From: Thermoanaerobacter sp.
GTDB taxonomy: Bacteria > Bacillota > Thermoanaerobacteria > Thermoanaerobacterales > Thermoanaerobacteraceae
Direction of reading: 5' to 3'
Length of the DNA stretch: 64,000 bases
NCBI GenBank assembly: GCA_014896455.1
Contig: JADBKJ010000008.1
Span: forward strand, 1-64,000
Shown: positions 5,858 to 15,373 of the stretch, one piece after another
How the letters are laid out: every line of letters starts with the position of its first letter
Numbering within the stretch: the first letter of the stretch is position 1
The notes under the pieces: generated by a model
Databases searched by the model: none
The model's input: the letters and a program-made list of their open reading frames with translations, nothing else
What the model was told of the DNA's origin: nothing
Translations under genes and position numbers: made by a program

Positions 5858-6799
5858 ATGGCAAGTAATTACAGTAACTTTTTTATAAAAGGTGAAGACG
5901 GGGTAGATATATACGTTCATTTATGGGAGCCTGTAGAAATTCCAAAAGGGATTATTCAGGTATTTCATGGAATGGCTGAACACGGGGGAAGATACCAAAA
6001 TTTTGCCCGTTATATGAATGAAAAAGGATTTGTAGTATGTGCTAATGACCATAGAGGTCACGGGAAAACAGCAGGGAGCTTGGATAATGTAGGTTACATA
6101 GGAAAAGATGGCTTTAATAAGATAGTAGAAGATGAATATCTGATAATGAAGTTTTTGAAAGAAAAACACGGAAATCTTCCCATTGTCATATTTGGCCATA
6201 GTTTTGGATCTTTTGTGGCTCAAGAGTTTATGATAAGGTATGGCAAAAAAGTTAATGGTGTTATATTGAGCGGTTCCTCTGCAGTTAAGGAATTGCCTCT
6301 TAGATTTGGTTATGCTTTGGCTTTTATTGAAAAAACATTTTTTGGTGAGAAAAGGAGGAGCAAAGTTTTGGATAAATTAACGTTTGGAAGTTACAATAAA
6401 AAAATAAAAGGAGATAATTTGAGCAAATTTGAATGGCTTTCTAAAGATAAGGAAGAGATTAAAAAATATGAAGAAGACCCTTACTGTGGGGGCGTCTTTA
6501 CAGCAGGATTTTTTTATTATTTCTTTAGGGGGCTTTTAAATATATATAAGCCTCAAAGATTAGTTAGGATACCGAAGGATTTGCCTTTATTTATAATTTC
6601 AGGAGAAGAAGATCCTGTCGGTGAATACGGTAAATTGGTAAGGAGGTTGTATGAGCTTTATAAGAGCATGGGATTAAAACAGGTTGATATGACGCTTTAT
6701 CAGGGGAAAAGGCATGAACTTCTCAATGAAGTTGGGAAAGAGGGAATTTATAAAGATATTCTCACATGGATTGAAAATAAAGTGTTAAATTATTCTTAA
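5858..6799 (+). CDS. Alpha/beta hydrolase, monoacylglycerol lipase/lysophospholipase type
   Basis: This is a serine hydrolase of 313 residues with the oxyanion motif QVFHGMAEHGGRYQ near residue 35, the nucleophile elbow GHSFGSF (Ser about 114), the acid in SGEEDPVGE (about 251) and the catalytic His in GKRHELLNE (about 287). This matches the monoglyceride lipase/lysophospholipase branch (Hydrolase_4). The ATG at 5858 has GAGGGGGAG in front and is preferred to a TTG at 5840. No signal peptide is seen, so it is cytoplasmic. Its 3' end overlaps the convergent transporter gene by 15 bases. Confidence 0.88.
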   Translation: MASNYSNFFIKGEDGVDIYVHLWEPVEIPKGIIQVFHGMAEHGGRYQNFARYMNEKGFVVCANDHRGHGKTAGSLDNVGYIGKDGFNKIVEDEYLIMKFLKEKHGNLPIVIFGHSFGSFVAQEFMIRYGKKVNGVILSGSSAVKELPLRFGYALAFIEKTFFGEKRRSKVLDKLTFGSYNKKIKGDNLSKFEWLSKDKEEIKKYEEDPYCGGVFTAGFFYYFFRGLLNIYKPQRLVRIPKDLPLFIISGEEDPVGEYGKLVRRLYELYKSMGLKQVDMTLYQGKRHELLNEVGKEGIYKDILTWIENKVLNYS

Positions 6800-7732
6800 T
6801 AACACCATGTAAAATGGCATTATGATAACGCTTAATATTGTTGTATATGTAATCATACTTGTGGCAAATTCATAATCTGCTCCGTAAACTCTCGCTATAA
6901 TTGCTGAGTTTACAAGTACAGGCATTGCTGACATTATGACAAATACATCCCTCATAAGCTTTGGCACAGGGATGAATATGTTTAGAAAAAGTACAAGAGC
7001 AGGAGTTATTAAAAATCTTCCAATGAAAACTAGAATGGCATCTTTGTCAAGTTTAAATTTATCAAAACCCATTTCATGAATGACTGTGCCAATGTAGAAT
7101 ATTGATAAAGGAGTAGTGAGGTTTCCAATCATTTTAAAGCTTTCAAAGAGAAATTTTGGTAGAGAAATATTTGCAAGTACAAAAATTACTCCTATTATAA
7201 AACCTAAAAGGGGAGGATTAAATATTCTCTTTACAGTATCCCAATTTACTACATTTTTTTCTTTTTCATTCACATCTCGTATAACGCTGTAAACACCCAG
7301 AGTCCACAGTATTGTAGTGTTTGCCATGTAATATAAAAGGGCGTAAGGTGTTGCTACATCTCCAAAAAGAGCTTGAGCCATGGGTAGTCCAATAAAAATA
7401 GTATTTGAGAGGGAGAATATCACTACAAAAACACCTTTTCTTCCCTTTTTTATTTTAAAAATGCTAGCAAATATGTAGGCGATCATATACGATAGAAGGA
7501 TAGATAAAAATGGAATCAAAAGTCCTCTTACTGAGTGTTCTAGTTGTTCTTTAGAAAAAGTTGTAGAAATGTTTACAATCATGTTAAGGGGTAAAGATAC
7601 ATTAATTACAAGCTTTGCAAAAAGGTCTGATGTTTGCCTGTCAAACCAACCTATTTTAGATAAATAATATCCCAGCGCAAGTATGAATACAATTATTAAA
7701 ACTCCCTGGATTGCAGAGAAGAAGACTTCCAT
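6785..7732 (-). CDS. AEC family transporter (auxin efflux carrier-like)
   Basis: A 315-residue integral membrane protein with about ten hydrophobic helices, beginning FFSAIQGVLIIVFILALGYY and including SLPLNMIVNIS, typical of the AEC superfamily. Bacterial members export malate or malonate or have unknown substrates. The start has AGAGGTG at a good distance. The gene is alone on this strand and convergent with the hydrolase gene, whose end it overlaps. Confidence 0.88.
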   Translation of the reverse strand: MEVFFSAIQGVLIIVFILALGYYLSKIGWFDRQTSDLFAKLVINVSLPLNMIVNISTTFSKEQLEHSVRGLLIPFLSILLSYMIAYIFASIFKIKKGRKGVFVVIFSLSNTIFIGLPMAQALFGDVATPYALLYYMANTTILWTLGVYSVIRDVNEKEKNVVNWDTVKRIFNPPLLGFIIGVIFVLANISLPKFLFESFKMIGNLTTPLSIFYIGTVIHEMGFDKFKLDKDAILVFIGRFLITPALVLFLNIFIPVPKLMRDVFVIMSAMPVLVNSAIIARVYGADYEFATSMITYTTILSVIIMPFYMVLLRII

Positions 7733-7818
7733 TAAAAAGACACCTCTTGTAAGAGAAAAAAGATAAAGTTTACTTATTTAGAATAGCACAAAGGAGTACA
7801 ATTTTCAAATCAAACAAA

Positions 7819-7867
7819 GGGGACGGTTCCTTCTGTCTGATTTTTTCAGACAAAAGGAACCGTCCCC
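7819..7867. repeat. Hairpin repeat, copy 3
   Basis: GGGGACGGTTCCTTCTGTCT pairs with AGACAAAAGGAACCGTCCCC. A short tandem reiteration of GTCCGTCCCCTTTGTC follows its right arm. Confidence 0.85.
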
Positions 7868-7894
7868 TTTGTCCGTCCCCTTTGTCTGTTTTTA

Positions 7895-7959
7895 TTAATA
7901 AAAATTTAATAATTTGTAACCAATTTGTAATATCAGATGGACGAAATAGTGTTATAATG
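7895..7959 (+). promoter_or_regulatory. Conserved upstream block A, copy 1
   Basis: An AT-rich stretch is followed by AATTTGTAACCAATTTGTAA, two AATTTGTAA boxes one helical turn (11 bases) apart. Then come TATCAGATGGACGAAATAGTG and TATAATGG. The same block lies before the genes at 9741, 11912 and 12792. TATAAT looks like a -10 box, but no good -35 box lies at 16-18 bases, so an activator or another sigma factor may be needed. Confidence 0.7.
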
Positions 7960-8001
7960 GAGATAGAAATATTTTTGAAAAGAAAATGTTTAAGGAGTTG
8001 A

Positions 8002-8646
8002 GTGCTGTTGAAAAAAAGTTTGATGTTGTTTATTGGTGTTATTTTAATGGTGTCATTTTTTACTATAATTGCTTTTGCAAATAGCACAATCAAATTAATC
8101 GTAAATGGTAGTGAGATTAAGCCGGATGTGCCACCGCAAATTATCAATGGAAGAACAATGGTACCTATTAAGTGGGTAGCTGAAGCTCTAGGGGCAGAAG
8201 TAGAATGGGATAAACAGAAGAAAATTGTTAAGGTCTCTTTTAACAAAAAAGTAGAAACAGATTTGATTAGTAATTATTTGAGGACAGCTGAAACTTCAAA
8301 ACATTTTGTAGAAAATTTTACCCATGCTTTGCAAGAACGAAATGGAGCTGTGGCTCGTTTGTTTTTAAGTCCTGAAATTAGGGGGCAAATAAAACCTGAA
8401 ATAATAGGTCCTTCTACACCGGTAACAAAAATAGAAATTAAAGAGGTTTCTTATAGTAATTATTATTGGGTATATAATGTTAAGGCATATTATAGTCCTT
8501 ATGATAATAATTCACCAACATTAGCTTTTGAAATAGACTTAACAGTAGAACCAGAAAGATATCCTGACGGTTCGGTGGTTTCGAGTAGGTATTTTATTAC
8601 CAAATTGGATTGGATTAAAGGTAAGACTAAATTTATACCTAATTAA
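8002..8646 (+). CDS. Secreted protein with copper-amine-oxidase-type stalk domain
   Basis: About 214 residues. A signal peptide (LMLFIGVILMVSFFTIIAFA) is followed by one stalk domain of the copper amine oxidase N1 type: IKLIVNGSEIKPDVPPQII, then NGRTMVPIKWVAEALGAEVE. This module is found in surface proteins of clostridia. The C-terminal part, about 130 residues, is of unknown family. The start is GTG 8002 or TTG 8008, both behind AAGGAG. The upstream region and the first 70 codons or so are almost identical to the gene at 11912, while the C-termini are unrelated. It is convergent with the gene at 8690 and shares a terminator with it. Confidence 0.75.
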   Translation: MLLKKSLMLFIGVILMVSFFTIIAFANSTIKLIVNGSEIKPDVPPQIINGRTMVPIKWVAEALGAEVEWDKQKKIVKVSFNKKVETDLISNYLRTAETSKHFVENFTHALQERNGAVARLFLSPEIRGQIKPEIIGPSTPVTKIEIKEVSYSNYYWVYNVKAYYSPYDNNSPTLAFEIDLTVEPERYPDGSVVSSRYFITKLDWIKGKTKFIPN

Positions 8647-8647
8647 A

Positions 8648-8674
8648 GAGATTAAGCAAATTCTTGCTTAATCT
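8648..8674. terminator. Bidirectional terminator
   Basis: GAGATTAAGCAA and its complement TTGCTTAATCTC form a short hairpin between two convergent genes. Confidence 0.65.
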
Positions 8675-8689
8675 CCTATAGTTTAAACA

Positions 8690-9391
8690 TTATGAAAAGC
8701 GCCACAAAACATACGCTCCTCCCCAAGGAGTGCTACCGTTGCAACCATATGGAATGCCGAGTTGAGTAGCTAAACCATCTGAAATATCAATGTCCGCACG
8801 ATAAATTCCATAATTTCCGGTATTCCAATAAGGATCATTAGTTCGCCACGGTCCAACATCAAGTATTTGTGATTTTTTAAAAGTGCCTGTAGAAGAAGTG
8901 GAAATATATATACTTTTGTTACATAGTCCAGTTGCAGGTAAAGCAACAAATATACTATTTGGTGGCAAACCATTTGGTACACATGCTGTTTGTGCTCCAT
9001 AAGAAAGTGTCCCATCACAGTTTGTGTGAAATTCTATAGAACCATAAACATAGAAGTAAACTGCTATACGAATGGAAAGACTTTGAAGGCCGTCAATGTC
9101 ACGTGCTATTATGTATCTAAAGGGATTGGTTCCATAAATGATTGTAAGAGGATTACACCATACTGTAGCTTGTCCATTCAAAGCTTGTGCTGACCCGATT
9201 TGATAGGGGTAATTTCCTTTTCCATCATCTGCATAAATGTTAACAATTTTATTATAGCTAGTATCAACGTTACCGTAAGCATCATATGCTGTTATAATTA
9301 CTCGAAAAGACTTTTTTACTGTAACATTCCATTCACTTTGAGGATCTGCATTATGATTTGGACCAGTAGATATTTTTAGTAAAGTTGCCAT
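8690..9391 (-). CDS. Putative Ig-like plus double-psi beta-barrel protein
   Basis: 233 residues. Residues about 25-100 resemble bacterial Ig-like/adhesin repeats (VIITAYDAYGNVDTSYNKIV). The C-terminus, KSQILDVGPWRTNDPYW then GIYRADIDISDGLATQLGI and ending GGAYVLWRF, resembles the RlpA/expansin-type double-psi barrel that often binds or cleaves peptidoglycan. There is no signal peptide, although the domains suggest an external site. The ribosome site AAGGAGG is strong. Its upstream region carries block B with a perfect palindrome, shared only with the gene at 10351. Confidence 0.55.
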   Translation of the reverse strand: MATLLKISTGPNHNADPQSEWNVTVKKSFRVIITAYDAYGNVDTSYNKIVNIYADDGKGNYPYQIGSAQALNGQATVWCNPLTIIYGTNPFRYIIARDIDGLQSLSIRIAVYFYVYGSIEFHTNCDGTLSYGAQTACVPNGLPPNSIFVALPATGLCNKSIYISTSSTGTFKKSQILDVGPWRTNDPYWNTGNYGIYRADIDISDGLATQLGIPYGCNGSTPWGGAYVLWRFS

Positions 9392-9423
9392 TCTTTATTT
9401 CCTCCTTAATTAAATTATTCTTC

Positions 9424-9475
9424 GAAGGACTAATCGGCCGATTTACCCTTCTACCTATTAAAGAGAGTTTTATGT
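9424..9475 (-). promoter_or_regulatory. Conserved upstream block B, copy 1
   Basis: Read on the minus strand: CTCTTTAATAGGTAGAAGGG, then TAAATCGGCCGATTAGTCC. It contains the perfect 12-base palindrome AATCGGCCGATT. A near-identical block precedes the gene at 10351, and a partial one (CTCTTTAATATATAGAAGG) precedes the intact split sigma pair. Confidence 0.65.
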
Positions 9476-9476
9476 C

Positions 9477-9590
9477 CTAATTTACAACCCATCTAAAAAA
9501 TCTTCTTCTAAAAATTCTCTCTTTTTTTCAATGCTCCTTTCTTTGTTTTATTTACTGCCTAGGAGCTTTAGAGCTATTTTCTAAGCAAAC
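9477..9590 (-). pseudogene. Sigma-like gene remnant (3' end only)
   Basis: The minus strand reads AVNKTKKGALKK and, after a shift, EFLEEDFLDGL, matching the last 30 or so residues of the intact sigma-like protein at 11078. Single-base indels break the frame, and the 5' three quarters of the gene are missing. A shorter version of the same remnant occurs at 12625. Confidence 0.75.
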
Positions 9591-9601
9591 TATTAAGGAG
9601 A

Positions 9602-9667
9602 ATTAATAAAAAATTAATAATTTGTAACCAATTTGTAATATCAGATGGACGAAATAGTGTTATAATG
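9602..9667 (+). promoter_or_regulatory. Conserved upstream block A, copy 2
   Basis: Matches copy 1 through AATTTGTAACCAATTTGTAA, CAGATGGACGAAATAGTG and TATAATGG. The leader after it differs, ending with GGGGGG before the gene at 9741. Confidence 0.7.
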
Positions 9668-9740
9668 GGGATATGAGTAGAAACATTGTATCTTAGGTGA
9701 AAGACTAAAAATTTTTTAAAGCGGTAATTGGGGGGATAAG

Positions 9741-10301
9741 ATGAGAGAAAGATATTTTTTAATTTTTGTACTTGGAATAATAATTGGTGTATTGATATCC
9801 CAGGGATTTACGAAATATACAGCTAAGGAGAAAATGGCGAAAAATATTCAAAATATTGATTTGGTAAACCCAATTTCTCAAAAAGAAATTTTGAAACAAT
9901 TAAAGGAAAGTCCATCTTTTGATATGTCTCAAATACCCGTGTATGGATCTGATATTTATGGAGGAATATGGAGAGATTATGGAACTAATTCTACTTCATT
10001 TGATGATTGGAAATTACCTAAAGTGTGGCAAAAATATATTTATTCAGTTAACAACAACGCTTCCAATGATAAGATTTTATACATAACGCTTCAAGGAGTT
10101 GTTTTCTTATACTTTCCACCTGACGATAGATATTGGCCGCCTGTGCCTATGTTTGGTGATATACCACCTGGTTCAGTAATAGTTGCACAGCATGTTCCTA
10201 TAAAACCTGCTGTTGAATCAGGTATAATACCTGTATATCATGGGCAAGCATTTATAAAGGGTTATCCTTTGCCTGAAGAATGGAAAAGAGCATTAAAGTA
10301 A
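9741..10301 (+). CDS. Membrane-anchored exported protein of unknown function
   Basis: 186 residues with an N-terminal hydrophobic helix (YFLIFVLGIIIGVLISQGF) that could anchor it or act as an uncleaved signal. The rest is soluble, rich in Pro, Tyr and Trp (VFLYFPPDDRYWPPVPMF). I do not recognise a family. It has the same kind of upstream block as the stalk-domain genes but no stalk domain. It is convergent with the glucosaminidase-like gene, and both end at one shared terminator. Confidence 0.6.
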   Translation: MRERYFLIFVLGIIIGVLISQGFTKYTAKEKMAKNIQNIDLVNPISQKEILKQLKESPSFDMSQIPVYGSDIYGGIWRDYGTNSTSFDDWKLPKVWQKYIYSVNNNASNDKILYITLQGVVFLYFPPDDRYWPPVPMFGDIPPGSVIVAQHVPIKPAVESGIIPVYHGQAFIKGYPLPEEWKRALK

Positions 10302-10317
10302 ATGTAACAATTTTTTA

Positions 10318-10354
10318 TTAAAGAGGGACTGATAAAGTTACAGTCCCTCTTTAA
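10318..10354. terminator. Bidirectional terminator
   Basis: TTAAAGAGGGACTG pairs with CAGTCCCTCTTTAA, with T/A runs on both sides. It overlaps the stop codon of the minus-strand gene. Confidence 0.85.
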
Positions 10355-10989
10355 TAAATATAATTGTACGAATCTTGCCAACCCGAATTTATTACAATAT
10401 TAATTAGAGATTGTCCAGGCTGTGTATCTGTTCCACTAAAATAATGACCAGCATCCCATTCAGATGCACCAAGAGCTTCTAAAACAGAATATAAAGCTTG
10501 ATGTTCATAATATGTCAATTGTTGAGGAGTTGGGAACTCAGGAATATCATTTAATCCATAATGTGTTACGCCTTGAGCTGTTACTGTATTTCCATTATCA
10601 TTTTTTACTGTTGCTGTTTTTCCTCCCGCTTTATAACCGATGTTATAGAACGTTGAAAGTTTAGTTGGAAAGCCAAAAATGTCTATATGACTGCCATCAT
10701 TGTAATAATTCATTTGTTTTATATAAGCTTGTACACCGTCGTTTAAGGTACAAAATATAGGAAATGCATTTCCAGTACTACCTCCACAATATCCACTCAC
10801 ACATATTCCACTTGGAGCCCATGTTTGAAATGCAGGATTTTTTATTGGCATTCCCCATTCTTGATACCAATGAGCTAATATTGCAGCAACGGGCAATTGT
10901 AAGGAGCGTGAAGCTGTTTGTGCATAACTTAAATAGTTGTTTACAAAAGTTGTATAATTTGGTTTTGGGCTTGTTGGACAAGTAGCCAT
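10351..10989 (-). CDS. Glucosaminidase/lysozyme-like protein
   Basis: 212 residues. The start TFVNNYLSYAQTASRSLQ, then VAAILAHWYQEWG with NPAFQTWAPSG, resembles the N-acetylglucosaminidase (GH73/lysozyme-like) fold, in which the Glu of the QEWG-type motif would be catalytic. Several Cys residues (SGICVSGYCGG) could form disulfides, suggesting an extracellular site. Like the 8690 product, however, it lacks a signal peptide and starts MAT. It lies directly downstream of the intact split sigma genes on the same strand, behind block B, so it is the best candidate target of that sigma pair. The fold assignment is moderate. Confidence 0.6.
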   Translation of the reverse strand: MATCPTSPKPNYTTFVNNYLSYAQTASRSLQLPVAAILAHWYQEWGMPIKNPAFQTWAPSGICVSGYCGGSTGNAFPIFCTLNDGVQAYIKQMNYYNDGSHIDIFGFPTKLSTFYNIGYKAGGKTATVKNDNGNTVTAQGVTHYGLNDIPEFPTPQQLTYYEHQALYSVLEALGASEWDAGHYFSGTDTQPGQSLINIVINSGWQDSYNYIY

Positions 10990-11018
10990 AAAAATCTACC
11001 TCGCTTTTATTATTTTTT

Positions 11019-11072
11019 CGAGGGACTAATCGGCCGATTTACCCTTCTACCTATTAAAGAGAGTTTTATATG
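11019..11072 (-). promoter_or_regulatory. Conserved upstream block B, copy 2
   Basis: Almost identical to the block at 9424, including AATCGGCCGATT. It starts 6 bases after the stop of the sigma-like gene. It may be a promoter/operator or a 5'-UTR element. Confidence 0.65.
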
Positions 11073-11077
11073 CTAAT

Positions 11078-11446
11078 TTACAACCCATCTAAGAAATCTT
11101 CTCCTAAAAATTCTCTCATTTTTTTCAATGCTCTTTTCTTTGTCTTATTTACTGCCTGCTGTGAAATATGAAGCTTTAAAGCTATTTCCTTTTCTTTTTT
11201 TCCATATAAAATTGTTTCAGTTATTATTTCTTTTTGTAAGGGAGTTAGTTTTTGTAGTGCTTCTTCTATTGCAAGCTTGATTTCTATATTTTGAGCATTT
11301 TCACTATCACTGCTAATAATTTCTTCATCTTCAATGAGAATCTCTTTTTCCTTAATCTTCTTATATTTTTTAGAAAGCCTTATGTATTCATTTTTCATGC
11401 CTTTTGCGATGTATGAGATTAATTTTTCATCATTTATATTAAGCAT
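11078..11446 (-). CDS. Sigma-70 region-4-like protein (SigO-type subunit)
   Basis: About 122 residues. The C-terminal half has a clear sigma region 4: EALQKLTPLQKEIITETIL, then KEKEIALKLHISQQAVNKT and KKRALKKMREFLGE. The N-terminal half (ISYIAKGMKNEYIRLSKKYK) lacks the core-binding region 2, which the upstream small gene may provide. ATG 11446 has AAAGGGTGA before it; a GTG at 11455 would overlap the upstream stop. The layout recalls the two-part SigO/RsoA sigma factor of B. subtilis. It probably controls the neighbouring cassette genes, an inference from position and shared promoter blocks. Confidence 0.7.
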   Translation of the reverse strand: MLNINDEKLISYIAKGMKNEYIRLSKKYKKIKEKEILIEDEEIISSDSENAQNIEIKLAIEEALQKLTPLQKEIITETILYGKKEKEIALKLHISQQAVNKTKKRALKKMREFLGEDFLDGL

Positions 11447-11451
11447 AAGAA

Positions 11452-11631
11452 TCACCCTTTAAGCTTAGTAATTGTTTTCAAAAGCCATAGTAATAGGTCT
11501 TCTTCGGCACCATCATATTCGAGCTTTTTCTTGTATTTATTGAGTAGGGGTTTAAACTTATCTATAATTTCCAATAACTTTTTTTCATCTTTTTCTTTTG
11601 GTTTTGTACTGGGAAGAGATTTGTTTTTCAA
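11452..11631 (-). CDS. Small partner protein of split sigma factor (candidate)
   Basis: About 59 very basic/acidic residues (KKLLEIIDKFKPLLNKYKKK then EYDGAEEDLLLWLLKTITK). The pattern of a helix followed by an acidic helix resembles the short sigma region 2-like proteins and the product at 2605. TTG 11631 follows AAGGTGA, while the frame opens at a GTG at 11646. The end lies against the start of the region-4 gene, as expected for coupled subunits. Sequence similarity is weak, so the assignment rests mainly on gene order. Confidence 0.5.
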   Translation of the reverse strand: MKNKSLPSTKPKEKDEKKLLEIIDKFKPLLNKYKKKLEYDGAEEDLLLWLLKTITKLKG

Positions 11632-11646
11632 TTTAATCACCTTCAC

Positions 11647-11804
11647 ATAAAAAATTACCTTCTATATATTAAAGAGCTATATTTATTACAGAAAACAACC
11701 CATGATAAAGAATTTTTTACAAGTAAAGAATAAATATCTAAAATAGCTAAATAGTTTGTACTAACTATTATAGCAATATTTTCTAAAGAATTTATTAAGA
11801 TAAA
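11647..11804. promoter_or_regulatory. Divergent spacer with partial block B
   Basis: On the minus strand CTCTTTAATATATAGAAGG lies just before the small partner gene. It shares CTCTTTAATA and TAGAAGG with block B but lacks the GGCCG palindrome, which suggests related promoter cores and possible autoregulation. The remaining bases are AT-rich with no gene. Confidence 0.5.
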
Positions 11805-11869
11805 TTAATAAAAATTTAATAATTTGTAATCAATTTGTAATATCAGATGGACGAAATAATGATATAATG
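11805..11869 (+). promoter_or_regulatory. Conserved upstream block A, copy 3
   Basis: AATTTGTAATCAATTTGTAA, CAGATGGACGAAATAATG and TATAATGG: one or two changes from copy 1. The identity to copy 1 continues into the gene. Confidence 0.7.
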
Positions 11870-11911
11870 GGAATAGAAATATTTTGAAAAGAAAATGTTA
11901 AAAGGAGTTGA

Positions 11912-12598
11912 GTGCTGTTGAAGAAAAGTTTGATGTTGTTTATTAGTGTTATTTTAATGGTGTCATTTTTTACTATAATTGCTTTTGCAAATAGCACAAT
12001 CAAATTAATCGTAAATGGTAGTGAGATTAAACCGGATGTGCCACCGCAAATTATCAATGGAAGAACAATGGTGCCTATTAAGTGGGTTGCTGAAGCTCTA
12101 GGGGCAGAAGTAGAATGGGATGGTAATAATAGAATTGTCAAGTTAACTTCGATCCTAGAAAGACCTATTCTTTTTACCAGAATTGCTTTCTCAAAGGACT
12201 GGCAAAAGGCAACAAAGCCACCATACCAGGAACTTCCGGAATTGTGTGATCTATATAACCAAAATTTCTATGTTATAACTGGCAACAGCGAAGGGAGTAA
12301 GGTCTTTGATACTCTAGGTATAGATAAACTGGAACGTGTATCGTCGAATATTACTTCTCCTGAAGGTAGTCTAGGTATTTTTACTGTGTATAGCTCTATT
12401 ATTGGGATTACAGTAAAAGGACAAAACATAATAATCTATGTACAACCTCAAGATGCCGGCTATGATTTCGTTGCAATTGAGCCACTAGTTGCTAACCTTC
12501 CATATAAAGAAAGCGGATCTGGTGAGAAAATGTTTACCTTCATTTTTACGGATACTAAAGGTAAAGAACTAACAAGGATTGTAAAAATGTGCCCTTAG
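11912..12598 (+). CDS. Secreted stalk-domain protein with variant C-terminus
   Basis: About 228 residues. The signal peptide and the copper-amine-oxidase-type stalk domain (residues about 30-75) are nearly identical in DNA to those of the gene at 8002. The two genes part company at about base 12122 (ATGGGAT in both), after which this one has an unrelated 150-residue domain (DLYNQNFYVITGNSEGSKVF, then AGYDFVAIEPLVANLPY). I do not recognise that domain. Start is GTG 11912 or TTG 11918, both behind AAGGAG. No minus-strand partner gene follows; a sigma remnant and the next module do. Confidence 0.75.
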   Translation: MLLKKSLMLFISVILMVSFFTIIAFANSTIKLIVNGSEIKPDVPPQIINGRTMVPIKWVAEALGAEVEWDGNNRIVKLTSILERPILFTRIAFSKDWQKATKPPYQELPELCDLYNQNFYVITGNSEGSKVFDTLGIDKLERVSSNITSPEGSLGIFTVYSSIIGITVKGQNIIIYVQPQDAGYDFVAIEPLVANLPYKESGSGEKMFTFIFTDTKGKELTRIVKMCP

Positions 12599-12624
12599 GT
12601 TTTGCCAAAATGCACAGGGAGACA

Positions 12625-12686
12625 TATTTCTTTGTTTTATTTACTGCCTAGGAGCTTTAGAGCTATTTTCTAAGCAAATTATTAAG
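12625..12686 (-). pseudogene. Sigma-like gene remnant (short)
   Basis: TTTCTTTGTTTTATTTACTG, then CCTAGGAGCTTTAGAGC, are shared almost base for base with the remnant at 9535-9600, including its deletion relative to the intact sigma gene. The two remnants therefore derive from one damaged ancestor that was copied. Confidence 0.7.
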
Positions 12687-12689
12687 ATA

Positions 12690-12755
12690 AATTAATAAAA
12701 ATTTAATAATTTGTAACCAATTTGTAATATCTGACAAACGAACTAATGGTATAAT
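12690..12755 (+). promoter_or_regulatory. Conserved upstream block A, copy 4
   Basis: AATTTGTAACCAATTTGTAA is exact, but the following part has drifted (CTGACAAACGAACTAATGG) before TATAAT. This is the most diverged copy, and the gene behind it is unrelated to the other three. Confidence 0.65.
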
Positions 12756-12791
12756 GTTGGTAAAAGAATTTATGGGAGGTTTTGGTGAGGA

Positions 12792-13970
12792 ATGAAAAAA
12801 GCTCTTGTAATTTTGATAATTTTAACTTTGTTATTTGGCGGATGCCAAACAAAAAGAGAGGTTAAGGAGAGTAATACGTTTCACAAACTAATTCCTAATT
12901 TTCAATATTTCCAAATGATAGATAGAAATAATGGATGGGCTATTGGAGAAAATATGGGAGAAAATATGGGAGAAAATAAAGTATTTATTACAAATGATGG
13001 AGGCACTACATGGGTGACTGCTTTGACTTCTGCCATAGGTGACATTCGTGAATGGTTTTTTATGGATTCTGATCATGCTTGGATACTTTATTCTAATGAG
13101 ACTCTCTATAAGACGGAAGATAGAGGTAAAAACTGGGATGCTGATGAAGTGCCTTTTGGTATGGGTAAATTATTTTTTATAAATTCCGGTGGAGAATATC
13201 AAGGTTGGGCCCTTAAGGAATATGGGCCTGCGTCTGGGAATGTGCCTGTGGATGTTTATAAATTAATAAACAATAAATGGACTCTCATTCACGAAGGAGA
13301 ATTGCCTAACAGTACTTCAGCATCTCCTAATCCACTTCCATATGAAGGGGAGAAAAAGAGCTTTGTTTTTTTGCCTGATGTAAAAACGGGTTTTATTACA
13401 GTGGAAAGGTGTGAACCAGGAAAATCTAGTTTATACATGACCACTGATGGAAGATATACATGGAATAAAAAAATTATTCCACTGCTTTCAAGATTTGATG
13501 AAGAATATATTTCTGTATATTCTCTTAAACTTGTTGATGGTGAAATCATTTGGCCAATATCTGCATTTGATGATGTGAGAGGGGATTTTGAGGAAGTGTT
13601 TTTAGTAAGCAAGGATAATGGGAATAGTTGGAAAGAGAAGGCTTCTTTTGTATCCAAGAATTCCCCCAAAGAGGTTTATGTAGTAGATGAAGAAAACTGG
13701 TATGTTTTATTTGAAGATGAATTATTTAAAACAAATAACGGAGGAAATACATGGGAAAAACTAAATATTCCTCAAGGTACATTTCAAATTCAATTTATAG
13801 ATAATAAAACAGTGTGGGCTTTAGCTTCAACATCGGGTGGGACAAGTTATGGTTGGCTACCTGTAAGAACGGATATTTTGCATGGATATGTTTCTACTTC
13901 ATGGGTAACACTTCATAGGGAGACTAGTAGTGAATGGGTGTTGATGTTAAATAATGGATATGTAAATTGA
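12792..13970 (+). CDS. Lipoprotein with YCF48/BNR-type beta-propeller repeats
   Basis: 392 residues. A lipoprotein signal (LLFGGC, Cys 18) is followed by repeated Asp-box motifs: FITNDGGTTW, YKTEDRGKNW, YMTTDGRYTW, LVSKDNGNSW and FKTNNGGNTW. These are spaced 45-90 residues apart, as in BNR/YCF48 beta-propellers, and the W-x-hydrophobic strands (GWAIG, AWILY, VWALA) fit. It is probably anchored on the outer membrane face and binds a partner or substrate; the role is unknown. A small in-frame tandem duplication gives ENMGENMGEN near residue 55. It is the last member of the block A array. Confidence 0.75.
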   Translation: MKKALVILIILTLLFGGCQTKREVKESNTFHKLIPNFQYFQMIDRNNGWAIGENMGENMGENKVFITNDGGTTWVTALTSAIGDIREWFFMDSDHAWILYSNETLYKTEDRGKNWDADEVPFGMGKLFFINSGGEYQGWALKEYGPASGNVPVDVYKLINNKWTLIHEGELPNSTSASPNPLPYEGEKKSFVFLPDVKTGFITVERCEPGKSSLYMTTDGRYTWNKKIIPLLSRFDEEYISVYSLKLVDGEIIWPISAFDDVRGDFEEVFLVSKDNGNSWKEKASFVSKNSPKEVYVVDEENWYVLFEDELFKTNNGGNTWEKLNIPQGTFQIQFIDNKTVWALASTSGGTSYGWLPVRTDILHGYVSTSWVTLHRETSSEWVLMLNNGYVN

Positions 13971-14052
13971 TATTAAATTAAAAGAATTGAAAAGTATTAC
14001 AATAACACAGAGGTATTCTTTTTTATAAAAATAAAAGAAAGGGAGAGTGTTA

Positions 14053-14439
14053 ATGAAAGAAGAAAATGTAGAGTTTAAGATATTTTTTATATTGCTAATA
14101 TATATTTATTTAATGGTAGGTAACATATTGTTACAAAAGATAATCCGTATTTCAGAAGTTACATACAACCAAATAATACTTGTGTGGGGTAATTTAATTT
14201 TTTATTTCGTTTTAGGAATATTATTAACAATTCCTTTCTTTTTAAGTGAAACAAAGAAAGAGGGGAATTGGATGATAAATTATAAATGTCTATTGGCTTT
14301 TATTTTACCCTTATTTGCAGTAGTTTTTTTGTATTTTTATCCCATCTTATTGGACCTTTCTTATGTACTAGGACATGTTATTAATGCACTATCTGTGGTA
14401 GCAGGATATTCATTGATTTTTATAGTCAGCAAGAAGTAA
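14053..14439 (+). CDS. Small integral membrane protein, unknown
   Basis: 128 residues with about four hydrophobic helices (IFFILLIYIYLMVGNILLQ; LIFYFVLGILLTIPFFL; CLLAFILPLFAVVFLYFYP; VINALSVVAGYSLIFIV). No family recognised. ATG 14053 is preceded by AAAGGGAGAG. It lies 82 bases behind the propeller lipoprotein and may be co-transcribed with it. Confidence 0.55.
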   Translation: MKEENVEFKIFFILLIYIYLMVGNILLQKIIRISEVTYNQIILVWGNLIFYFVLGILLTIPFFLSETKKEGNWMINYKCLLAFILPLFAVVFLYFYPILLDLSYVLGHVINALSVVAGYSLIFIVSKK

Positions 14440-14575: not shown

Positions 14576-15373
14576 TTAGGTACTTTTTAAGTAGCCTACA
14601 ATTATTTGATTTAAGCGGGGATATTCACCTATATCTTCTTCAGTTTGTACTAAAACTTCGTTATTCATTACTGCGATTACTTTTGCCCCTTTTATGTTTT
14701 CATTTAGGCTAACTATTCTGTGTTTTTGTTTCGCTTCATCAATGGAATCTGTATATAGTATTTTTCCATCTTTTATTATGGCAAAACTTGTGGCGTATTC
14801 TTCTAATTCAAATATTTCATGAGAAGAAAGTAAAATAGTGCCCTTCTTTTCATTGACGTATTGCTTTATTATTTCTATAAGTTCAAACCTAGCAGCCGGG
14901 TCAAGGTGCTGTGTAGGCTCATCCAGTATTATGAGTTTTGCATTTGTTGAAAAAGCTAATATCGCTAATATAAGGGTTTTTTGACCCCTTGAGAATTTTT
15001 GCATCTCTTCATTTAAGTTAAAGCCATATCGGGAGAGAAAGTTTTTAAAAAACATATCATCCCATGATGGATACAGAGTTTTGTACAGTTTGTAATAGTC
15101 TGCCAGTTGTAAGTTGTTAAAGACTTTTCTGTGTTCTGTAACAAACGCTATATCTTTTTTTATAGAAGGGTGAAAAGGCTTTTCGAATATGAATATTTCG
15201 CCTGAATCCTTTTTTACTGCGTTCATTATGCATTTTAATGTTGTGGTTTTTCCTGCACCGTTTGGACCCACAAGTGCCATTATTTCTCTTTCTTCTACTT
15301 TAAAAGTTACATTGGAGAGTATTTGTTTTCCATCAATTTGTTTACTTAGATTCTTTACTTCTAATGTGTACAT
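14576..15373 (-). CDS. ABC transporter ATP-binding protein (YtrB-like)
   Basis: 265 residues with Walker A GPNGAGKTT (36-44), a degenerate signature FSRGQKT (about 130), Walker B LIILDEPT (about 147-154) and the switch His in LLSSHE. It belongs to the CcmA/YtrB group that pairs with a GntR regulator. The start overlaps the permease stop by one base. It probably energises export or defence against an antimicrobial, as known for GntR(YtrA)-linked systems; the substrate is inferred only from context. Confidence 0.88.
   Translation of the reverse strand: MYTLEVKNLSKQIDGKQILSNVTFKVEEREIMALVGPNGAGKTTTLKCIMNAVKKDSGEIFIFEKPFHPSIKKDIAFVTEHRKVFNNLQLADYYKLYKTLYPSWDDMFFKNFLSRYGFNLNEEMQKFSRGQKTLILAILAFSTNAKLIILDEPTQHLDPAARFELIEIIKQYVNEKKGTILLSSHEIFELEEYATSFAIIKDGKILYTDSIDEAKQKHRIVSLNENIKGAKVIAVMNNEVLVQTEEDIGEYPRLNQIIVGYLKST

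Follow-up and report, generated by a model that had tools for sequence, protein, structure and literature searches.

A split sigma factor and convergent gene cassettes in Thermoanaerobacter: a putative bacteriocin-immunity island

Organization of the island

The window analyzed in this study comprises 64,000 nucleotides (nt) of a Thermoanaerobacter sp. genome (GenBank assembly GCA_014896455.1, contig JADBKJ010000008.1, positions 1 to 64,000). It contains an island of eight genes that is bordered by a carrier gene at 6785-7732 and by an ABC gene at 14576-15373. The layout of this island had been described in an original prediction made from the sequence alone. Four forward genes (8002, 9741, 11912 and 12792, named by their lower coordinate) follow copies of a conserved block A, two reverse genes (8690 and 10351) follow copies of a second block B, and sigma-like sequence is present as two remnants and one intact two-gene unit. 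This layout is real and all of its elements were confirmed (Table 1). The components are ordinary; their combination is unusual.

The genus comparison covered 10 genomes (G000, which carries the window, to G009), and a sister genus of the same family was represented by G016, G018 and G019. Promoter motifs were scanned in 24 genomes of the order. Both flanking genes lie on one contig in 6 of the 10 genus genomes (G000, G002, G004, G006, G007, G009), the others having one or neither. Mapped stretches of G001 and G008 fall short of the full island, the G001 map spanning about 2 kb. Island contents are different in each genus genome mapped. Thus, module number and content vary between relatives, in line with the predicted local array.

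Table 1. Features of the island. Remnant limits were set by eye. Lengths are in amino acids (aa).
Position	Strand	Feature	Details
7913..7958	+	Block A, copy 1	TGTAAC-N5-TGTAAT box 7915-7931, TATAAT 7953-7958; upstream of 8002
8002..8646	+	Exported protein, candidate immunity for 8690	Cu_amine_oxidN1 (PF07833, E 3.2e-18) and variable C-terminal part
8648..8675	+	Hairpin	Terminator-like pattern between convergent 8002 and 8690
8690..9391	-	Candidate effector	233 aa, without signal peptide, no family match
9427..9446	-	Leader element of effector gene	Contains palindrome
9458..9490	-	Block B, site 1	GGGTTGT-N18-CTCTTTAA, candidate promoter of split sigma
9482..9580	-	Sigma remnant	About 100 nt of the gene's 3' end, running into block B; left limit approximate
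9621..9666	+	Block A, copy 2	Box 9623-9639, TATAAT 9661-9666
9741..10301	+	Candidate immunity partner of 10351	186 aa, hydrophobic N-terminus
10320..10352		GC-rich hairpin	Between convergent 9741 and 10351 (by eye; unlisted by terminator scan)
10351..10989	-	Candidate effector	212 aa, without signal peptide, no family match
11023..11042	-	Leader element of effector gene	Contains palindrome
11054..11086	-	Block B, site 2	GGGTTGT-N18-CTCTTTAA; -35-like part overlaps last codons and stop of sigma
11078..11455	-	Region 4 half of split sigma	125 aa; Sigma70_r4_2 (PF08281, E 1.1e-12)
11452..11646	-	RsoA-like (region 2) half of split sigma	
11669..11701	-	Third B-type site	Upstream of sigma operon, candidate autoregulation
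11823..11868	+	Block A, copy 3	Box 11825-11841, TATAAT 11863-11868
11912..12598	+	Orphan candidate immunity gene	Cu_amine_oxidN1 (PF07833, E 2.7e-16) with different C-terminal part
12627..12672	-	Second sigma remnant	About 45 nt, without block B; limits approximate
12710..12755	+	Block A, copy 4	Box 12712-12728, TATAAT 12750-12755
12792..13970	+	Lipoprotein, candidate orphan immunity gene	BNR/YCF48-like repeats (PF15902, E 3.8e-13); right edge of island

A sigma factor divided over two genes

The profile search suggested for the 11078 product placed it in sigma region 4 as anticipated (Table 1), and it also matches TIGR02937 (E 4.1e-14); the family scan yielded no region 2 match in this protein. 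The 11452 product gave no credible family match, HTH_16 being absent at E<=1, and its sister-genus homologue reaches 17.8 bits with HTH_16 at a cut-off of 22. Homologues of the 11452 product, 50-53% identical, adjoin the sigma gene in the sister genus, and both halves form one fused protein of 177 aa in G014 and G019. In alignments to the fused sigma of G014 the 11452 product covers residues 10-59 (score 111, best of 1000 shuffles 61) and the 11078 product residues 63-172 (score 240, best of 1000 shuffles 72). Since 11078 represents region 4 and 11452 aligns to the region-2 half of the fused homologue, the interpretation of the pair as one sigma factor cut in two is well supported.

A near-identical region-4 gene was found only in G000 and G009 among the genus genomes. 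G008 carries a divergent sigma homologue at a different locus, and none was detected in G001, G006 and G007 in the search of the 10 genomes. Of the sister-genus genomes, G016 and G018 have both halves as open frames.

Another pair resembling a split sigma, different from the first, is located at 2094-2805 of the window and has its own TGTAAT-N5-TGTAAC box. It consists of a region 4-like open reading frame (ORF) at 2189-2548 (119 aa), whose orthologues in L028, L030 and L073 have 133 aa, and a 66-aa ORF at 2605-2805, whose orthologue in G009 matches HTH_16 (E 5.7e-12). In G009 (L028:1662-4528), genes for an Amidase_6 protein and a lipoprotein come after the orthologous pair.

Promoter blocks and sigma remnants

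Block A is a family of 130-nt repeats at 7830, 9538, 11740 and 12627, one upstream of each forward gene. With the 9538 copy as reference, the copies at 7830, 11740 and 12627 are 68, 71 and 91% identical. Each contains a TGTAAY-N5-TGTAAT box and a TATAAT element, with the core TGTAAY-CAATT-TGTAAT preceding TATAAT. PMC9210968 gives the WalR consensus as TGTWAH-N5-TGTWAH. By its sequence, the block A box fits this consensus and is WalR-type, distinct from the motif of block B. TGTWAHN5TGTWAH occurs 6 times in the window, with 4 of these sites in block A; in 100 shuffles the mean was 0.75 and the maximum 4. Exact boxes of this type precede forward genes 23 times in the mapped islands of seven genomes (4 in G000, 8 in G009, 2 in G003, 3 in G005, 2 in G004, 2 in G002 and 2 in G006), and G001 and G007 have a box with one mismatch.

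The two copies of block B (9418-9528 and 11014-11124), upstream of the reverse genes as predicted, are 94% identical over 111 nt. A third B-type site upstream of the sigma operon extends the earlier finding. The pattern GGTTGT-N17/18-CYCTTTNA was found 3 times in the window, as compared to a mean of 0.01 and a maximum of 1 in 200 shuffles of two-base blocks. In the order, the strict pattern GGGTTGT-N18-CTCTTTAA yielded 16 sites in 9 of the 24 genomes and 0 in the reversed control. A looser pattern gave 30 sites versus 10 control matches; 25 of the 30 are located in islands, the other 5 inside ORFs. With a slightly wider pattern, 28 island sites were obtained, 23 before effector-like genes and 5 before sigma operons of the type rsoA/sigma or holin-like/rsoA/sigma. 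No B site was found in G001, G006 and G007.

This distribution is as expected for a dedicated, self-activating sigma factor, and we infer that the split sigma reads the motif. As the motif of the sigma operon is found in block B only and block A is different, the sigma factor probably reads the reverse genes and its own operon, not the forward genes. Hence, the proposed control of the module set by the split sigma is supported in part: it agrees with the motif shared by block B and the sigma operon and disagrees with the WalR-type block A.

Sigma remnants were present as predicted. The 11 remnants listed in front of block B all have the left breakpoint AAATAGC-YYTAAAGC in common (determined by eye), and a single truncated sigma copy is therefore the probable ancestor of the cassettes. 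In most effector leaders B is followed by a palindrome, AATCGGCCGATT or a close variant, that sigma leaders lack. It may represent an operator or an RNA element.

Effectors and their convergent partners

Genes behind B in the homologous cassettes encode several enzyme types, namely M15 peptidase, lytic transglycosylase, L,D-transpeptidase and DUF1906. Domain matches comprise M15 peptidase (E 2e-5) together with PG_binding_1 (E 2.2e-16), DPBB_1 (E 1.9e-8), YkuD (E 8.8e-6) and Rv2525c/DUF1906 (E 2.9e-31), and PG_binding_1 was also found. The remaining effectors are small and have hydrophobic stretches (by eye). G009 carries seven effectors behind B.

Using a simple score, a strongly hydrophobic N-terminus was found in none of the 23 genes behind B (highest score 1.03) and in 19 of their 21 convergent neighbors (scores of at least 2.27), 10 of which have a lipobox. 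The two non-hydrophobic neighbors are a 193-aa protein of G009 and a shortened ORF of G002. Two genes behind B, that of a 196-aa effector in G009 and orf90 of G018, have no convergent neighbor by the rule used. Forward and reverse products had been regarded as one set of exported wall-active proteins. This view has to be replaced: reverse products lack a signal peptide and forward products are mostly exported, giving convergent effector/immunity-like pairs.

Pairing was evaluated for 22 cassettes, comprising 21 convergent pairs and one stand-alone module of G008. Cassette pairs with the same effector family shared the partner family in 16 of 25 cases; in 10,000 permutations the mean was 2.06 and the maximum 11. 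The 9 discordant pairs all derive from two families with divergent subfamilies. One effector-partner pair was found again in G014, which belongs to a different genus, at a locus unrelated to the island (effector 80%, partner 56% identical), and another recurs in G008 at a different locus.

Partners were also found on their own. G001, G006 and G007 contain forward-gene homologues with neither a B site nor a sigma homologue; the G006 map also has two reverse ORFs lacking B sites. An effector is located beside 11912-type genes in 3 of the 10 genus genomes (G005, G008, G009), always adjoining such a gene. No match to this effector was detected in the window genome, and 11912 therefore looks like an orphan immunity gene. 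Occurrence both with specific effector families and alone is what toxin-immunity pairs display, in which the reverse product would inhibit and the forward product protect.

For the genes of the window the pairs are indicated by relatives. The homologue of 8002, which has a hydrophobic N-terminus, converges on the same effector family in G009, and a 9741-type gene converges on the 10351 effector family in G003. In the sister genus, genes for BNR-type lipoproteins, the type of 12792, are convergent with those for DUF1906 and YkuD effectors.

Mosaic identity and exchange of cassettes

Identity across the mapped stretches is mosaic. The left flank is 89% identical to G009. An 8690 copy with 99% identity was found in G009 and a 10351 copy with 99% identity in G003, each being absent from the mapped stretches of the other eight genomes. 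12792 is 98% identical to G002 and G003 and 81% to G009, and the right flank 99% to G002 and G004, 96% to G003 and 89% to G009. In G009 a 149-aa effector is located behind an rsoA-type leader; this junction looks made by exchange in the conserved block. Mosaic identity, the common remnant breakpoint and the G009 junction together indicate that the exchanged unit is the convergent pair and its shared end the divergent block B-remnant-A. This fits the recombination in conserved blocks that had been proposed. Family scans detected no integrase among the eight island proteins, in contrast to integron cassette arrays.

Relatives of the sigma factor and known systems

In the sister genus the gene order is B, holin-like gene, rsoA-like gene, sigma gene, B, effector. 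Fused relatives of the sigma factor were surveyed in a phylum sample of 398 genomes at a match threshold of 1e-18. Matches were obtained in 7 genomes, in G014, G236, G351 and G383 over the fused length. The fused sigma gene is accompanied by Holin_BhlA (E 3.4e-34) and Amidase_2 in G383, by a BhlA holin (E 1.7e-22), a near-identical second copy (by eye), small effectors and convergent genes in G351, and is located near a protein with SH3 and M14 domains in G236.

According to PMC9527704, Bcn5 bacteriocins are M14 proteins without Sec signal, with SH3b where they are tied to a holin, and the associated sigma factor and BhlA holin are UviA and UviB. Bcn5 loci and the island share a dedicated sigma factor and a bacteriocin or bacteriocin-like gene without Sec signal, the activity being presumed here, as well as wall-active domains; fused relatives of the sigma are found near an SH3 and M14 protein or BhlA holins. 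In contrast to Bcn5 loci, the sigma factor of the island is split over two genes, many small and mostly unrelated effectors replace one large protein, convergent and mostly exported partners are present, cassettes are arrayed, and no holin was found in the genus. M14 peptidase and SH3b domains were not found in the window effectors, and no BhlA-family holin was recognized in the window island. Since the fused-sigma loci resemble UviA-UviB-Bcn5, the nearest known kind is the clostridial sigma-holin-bacteriocin locus, a precedent for a layout that had been thought to be without one. The window array is best read as a presumptive variant of this plan in which the sigma is split, the effectors are small and numerous, partners converge on them and cassettes are exchanged. 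The island itself is undescribed in the literature searched, which left most subscription journals outside its coverage.

Further loci with related genes were observed. A fused sigma gene is located behind a holin-like gene in L087/L088 (G014, G019), beside a 498-aa protein that is TROVE/vWA-like by eye only. Short two-piece matches to the holin-like gene in L123, L124, L126 and L127 (G013, G015) suggest that further species of the sister genus have decayed islands. Downstream of the 196-aa effector of G009, L029:6983-7252 encodes a protein of 89 aa whose N-terminal part has one hydrophobic segment and whose tail is charged; it has no BhlA match in Pfam and weak spanin-like matches in PHROGs.

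SigO-RsoA of Bacillus subtilis, as described in PMC8103513, carries sigma 4 and sigma 2 on separate cooperating proteins that act also on their own operon. As in the island, regions 4 and 2 reside on separate adjoining polypeptides. The SigO-RsoA regulon consists of oxalate decarboxylase and yvrJ versus candidate wall effectors in the island, and in contrast to SigO-RsoA the relatives of the window sigma include fused forms; the comparison covers the layout and action described for the subunits.

The TcdR/BotR/UviA group 5 sigma factors likewise are dedicated to secreted toxins or bacteriocins. PMC4031146 gives SRQ in region 4.2 and a TTTACA -35 element as group features. The 11078 product has SQQ (ISQQAV) instead of SRQ and the candidate promoter GGTTGT instead of TTTACA, and membership in this group was rejected. 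The window half scored 19.8 bits against a cut-off of 138, and three fused relatives gave partial BotR model matches (E 2e-7, 7.9e-12 and 6.5e-6), all below the cut-off.

Polymorphic toxins of the type VII secretion system (T7SS), such as EsaD/EsaG, resemble the island in their strings of immunity genes and in recombination between shared blocks (PMC9484751). In contrast, whole effector-partner pairs appear to be exchanged here via intergenic promoter blocks. The family scan revealed no T7SS-type trafficking domain in the window effectors.

Interpretation and alternative explanations

The sequences themselves show the pairing, the asymmetry in export, the splitting of the sigma factor, a motif common to effector genes and sigma operons, orphan forward genes and mosaic identity. 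On this basis we consider it likely that the island is a set of bacteriocin-immunity cassettes under a split sigma factor, exchanged by homologous recombination in the B-remnant-A blocks. In a full cassette, two genes would converge: an immunity-like gene on the forward strand, preceded by block A and with a usually exported product, and an effector gene on the reverse strand, preceded by block B. The effector would be a wall enzyme or a small hydrophobic protein without signal peptide. The two-piece sigma (11452 and 11078) would activate block B including its own operon and thus act as a positive-feedback switch. Effectors may leave the cell via a holin-like pore or by lysis of the producer and attack the wall or membrane of neighbors, and the forward proteins, expressed from a separate WalR-type promoter, would shield the producer and its kin from outside the membrane. 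Homologous recombination in the B-remnant-A blocks may add, remove and replace cassettes. Two reasons probably account for the persistence of sigma 3' remnants, namely the overlap between the -35 part of B and the sigma stop codon and the descent of the cassettes from one truncated copy. Islands without sigma may be silent arsenals that still confer immunity.

Programmed self-lysis or fratricide is an unlikely alternative, in which sigma-driven wall enzymes would lyse some cells or siblings to release DNA or enzymes and the forward proteins would protect the remaining cells, kin rather than competitors being the targets. Wall enzymes without signal peptide and the holin-like gene of the sister loci do resemble a lysis cassette, as does the sigma, BhlA holin and Amidase_2 arrangement in G383. 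However, effector sets vary between close relatives, along with matching partners, and three relatives possess forward genes in the absence of both sigma and B sites; these observations fit inter-strain competition better than a single conserved lysis program. Still less probable is an envelope-stress regulon, in which wall enzymes and surface lipoproteins would be adjusted by a sigma of SigO-RsoA type to maintain the wall of the cell itself and amplification would reflect chance duplication. The SigO-RsoA precedent (PMC8103513), the combination of wall enzymes with exported proteins and the WalR-type boxes speak for such a regulon, whereas opposite, separately promoted genes, effectors without export signals, effector-partner pairing and presence/absence variation speak against it.

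We give very little weight to remains of a prophage lysis module kept with its phage-type late regulator. DUF1906 and PG-binding effectors match phage endolysin families, and the fused sigmas weakly match the ArpU phage regulator model (E 8.5e-4 and 1.5e-7, below the cut-off). However, no phage structural gene was recognized by eye in the ORF maps, 10351 has no relatives in phage records or viral contigs, and lysis modules do not include exported, separately promoted partners.

A number of observations weigh against the bacteriocin-immunity interpretation. All function discussed here is inferred from sequence comparison, and the window genome is a 33-contig draft that is 90% complete. 8690 and 10351 have no credible family match, and their single-sequence AlphaFold models were too poor for use (mean pLDDT 41). 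8690 appears plausible as a DPBB enzyme by eye, which profile comparison did not support (E 0.19). Because block A is duplicated, the conservation of its box argues weakly for WalR, and islands of the sister genus showed no WalR-type box. The recurring pairs result partly from descent, so relatedness inflates the pairing count. The 193-aa partner in G009 has no export signal, the shortened orf90 of G018 is located behind B without a forward partner, and the 9741 family was also found apart from its effector. The holin call in the sister genus is weak (phrog_1299, E 8e-4 for one copy and 0.2-0.3 for two others, no Pfam match), and this holin-like family has no relative in any of the 10 genus genomes, where BhlA itself was not searched genome-wide. 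Furthermore, the small sigma half of G009 is spread over two frames, either by a true break or by a sequencing error, and in G019 the split pair's region 4 carries a break in its frame. G002, G003, G004 and G005 retain sigma 3' remnants only. The whole proposed switch is thus present in one of the six genus genomes with B-linked effectors, that of the window, which lowers our confidence; as both halves are open in this one genome only, several arrays may be silent. As G002 to G005 keep B-linked effectors with remnants only, control by this sigma, predicted for the module set, is not general in the genus today. Either the other arrays are silent or a different regulator reads block B.

It is possible, and in our judgment close to an even matter, that the island represents an undescribed class of polymorphic bacteriocin islands built on a portable divergent block, which would combine the promoter of the split sigma factor, a remnant of the sigma 3' end and a separate immunity promoter of the wall-stress type. 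The -35 element of the sigma promoter in this block would overlap the sigma stop codon. Since cassettes end in the portable block, they could be exchanged by ordinary homologous recombination and arrive already wired. The weapon would depend on the sigma factor and the antidote on a housekeeping circuit, so that the antidote outlives loss of the sigma. If this is correct, a swappable arsenal of weapons and antidotes is possible without an integrase or a dedicated secretion machine, and one shared regulatory block serves as both promoter pair and recombination end. Our analysis also yields a promoter prediction for this new split sigma, and the occurrence of one sigma in fused as well as split form offers material on how a sigma factor is cut in two. 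In addition, new candidates for wall-active effectors and for immunity proteins are obtained from thermophiles, together with an explanation of competition among Thermoanaerobacter strains that can be tested.

Additional features of the region

No family match was found for the 9741 product. A glucosaminidase assignment of 10351, made by eye only, was discarded, with no credible match in Pfam, NCBIfam, PHROGs or PDB sequences. The terminator scan of the region gave 5 hits as compared to 3.6 expected in shuffles. In an Rfam scan of 7500-14400 (E<=1) no listed match reached the gathering score of its family, most matches falling on the hairpin 7811-7893. At the left edge of the island a long, near-perfect hairpin with 20 pairs was observed at 7811-7892, accompanied by further GTCCCCTTTGT repeats.

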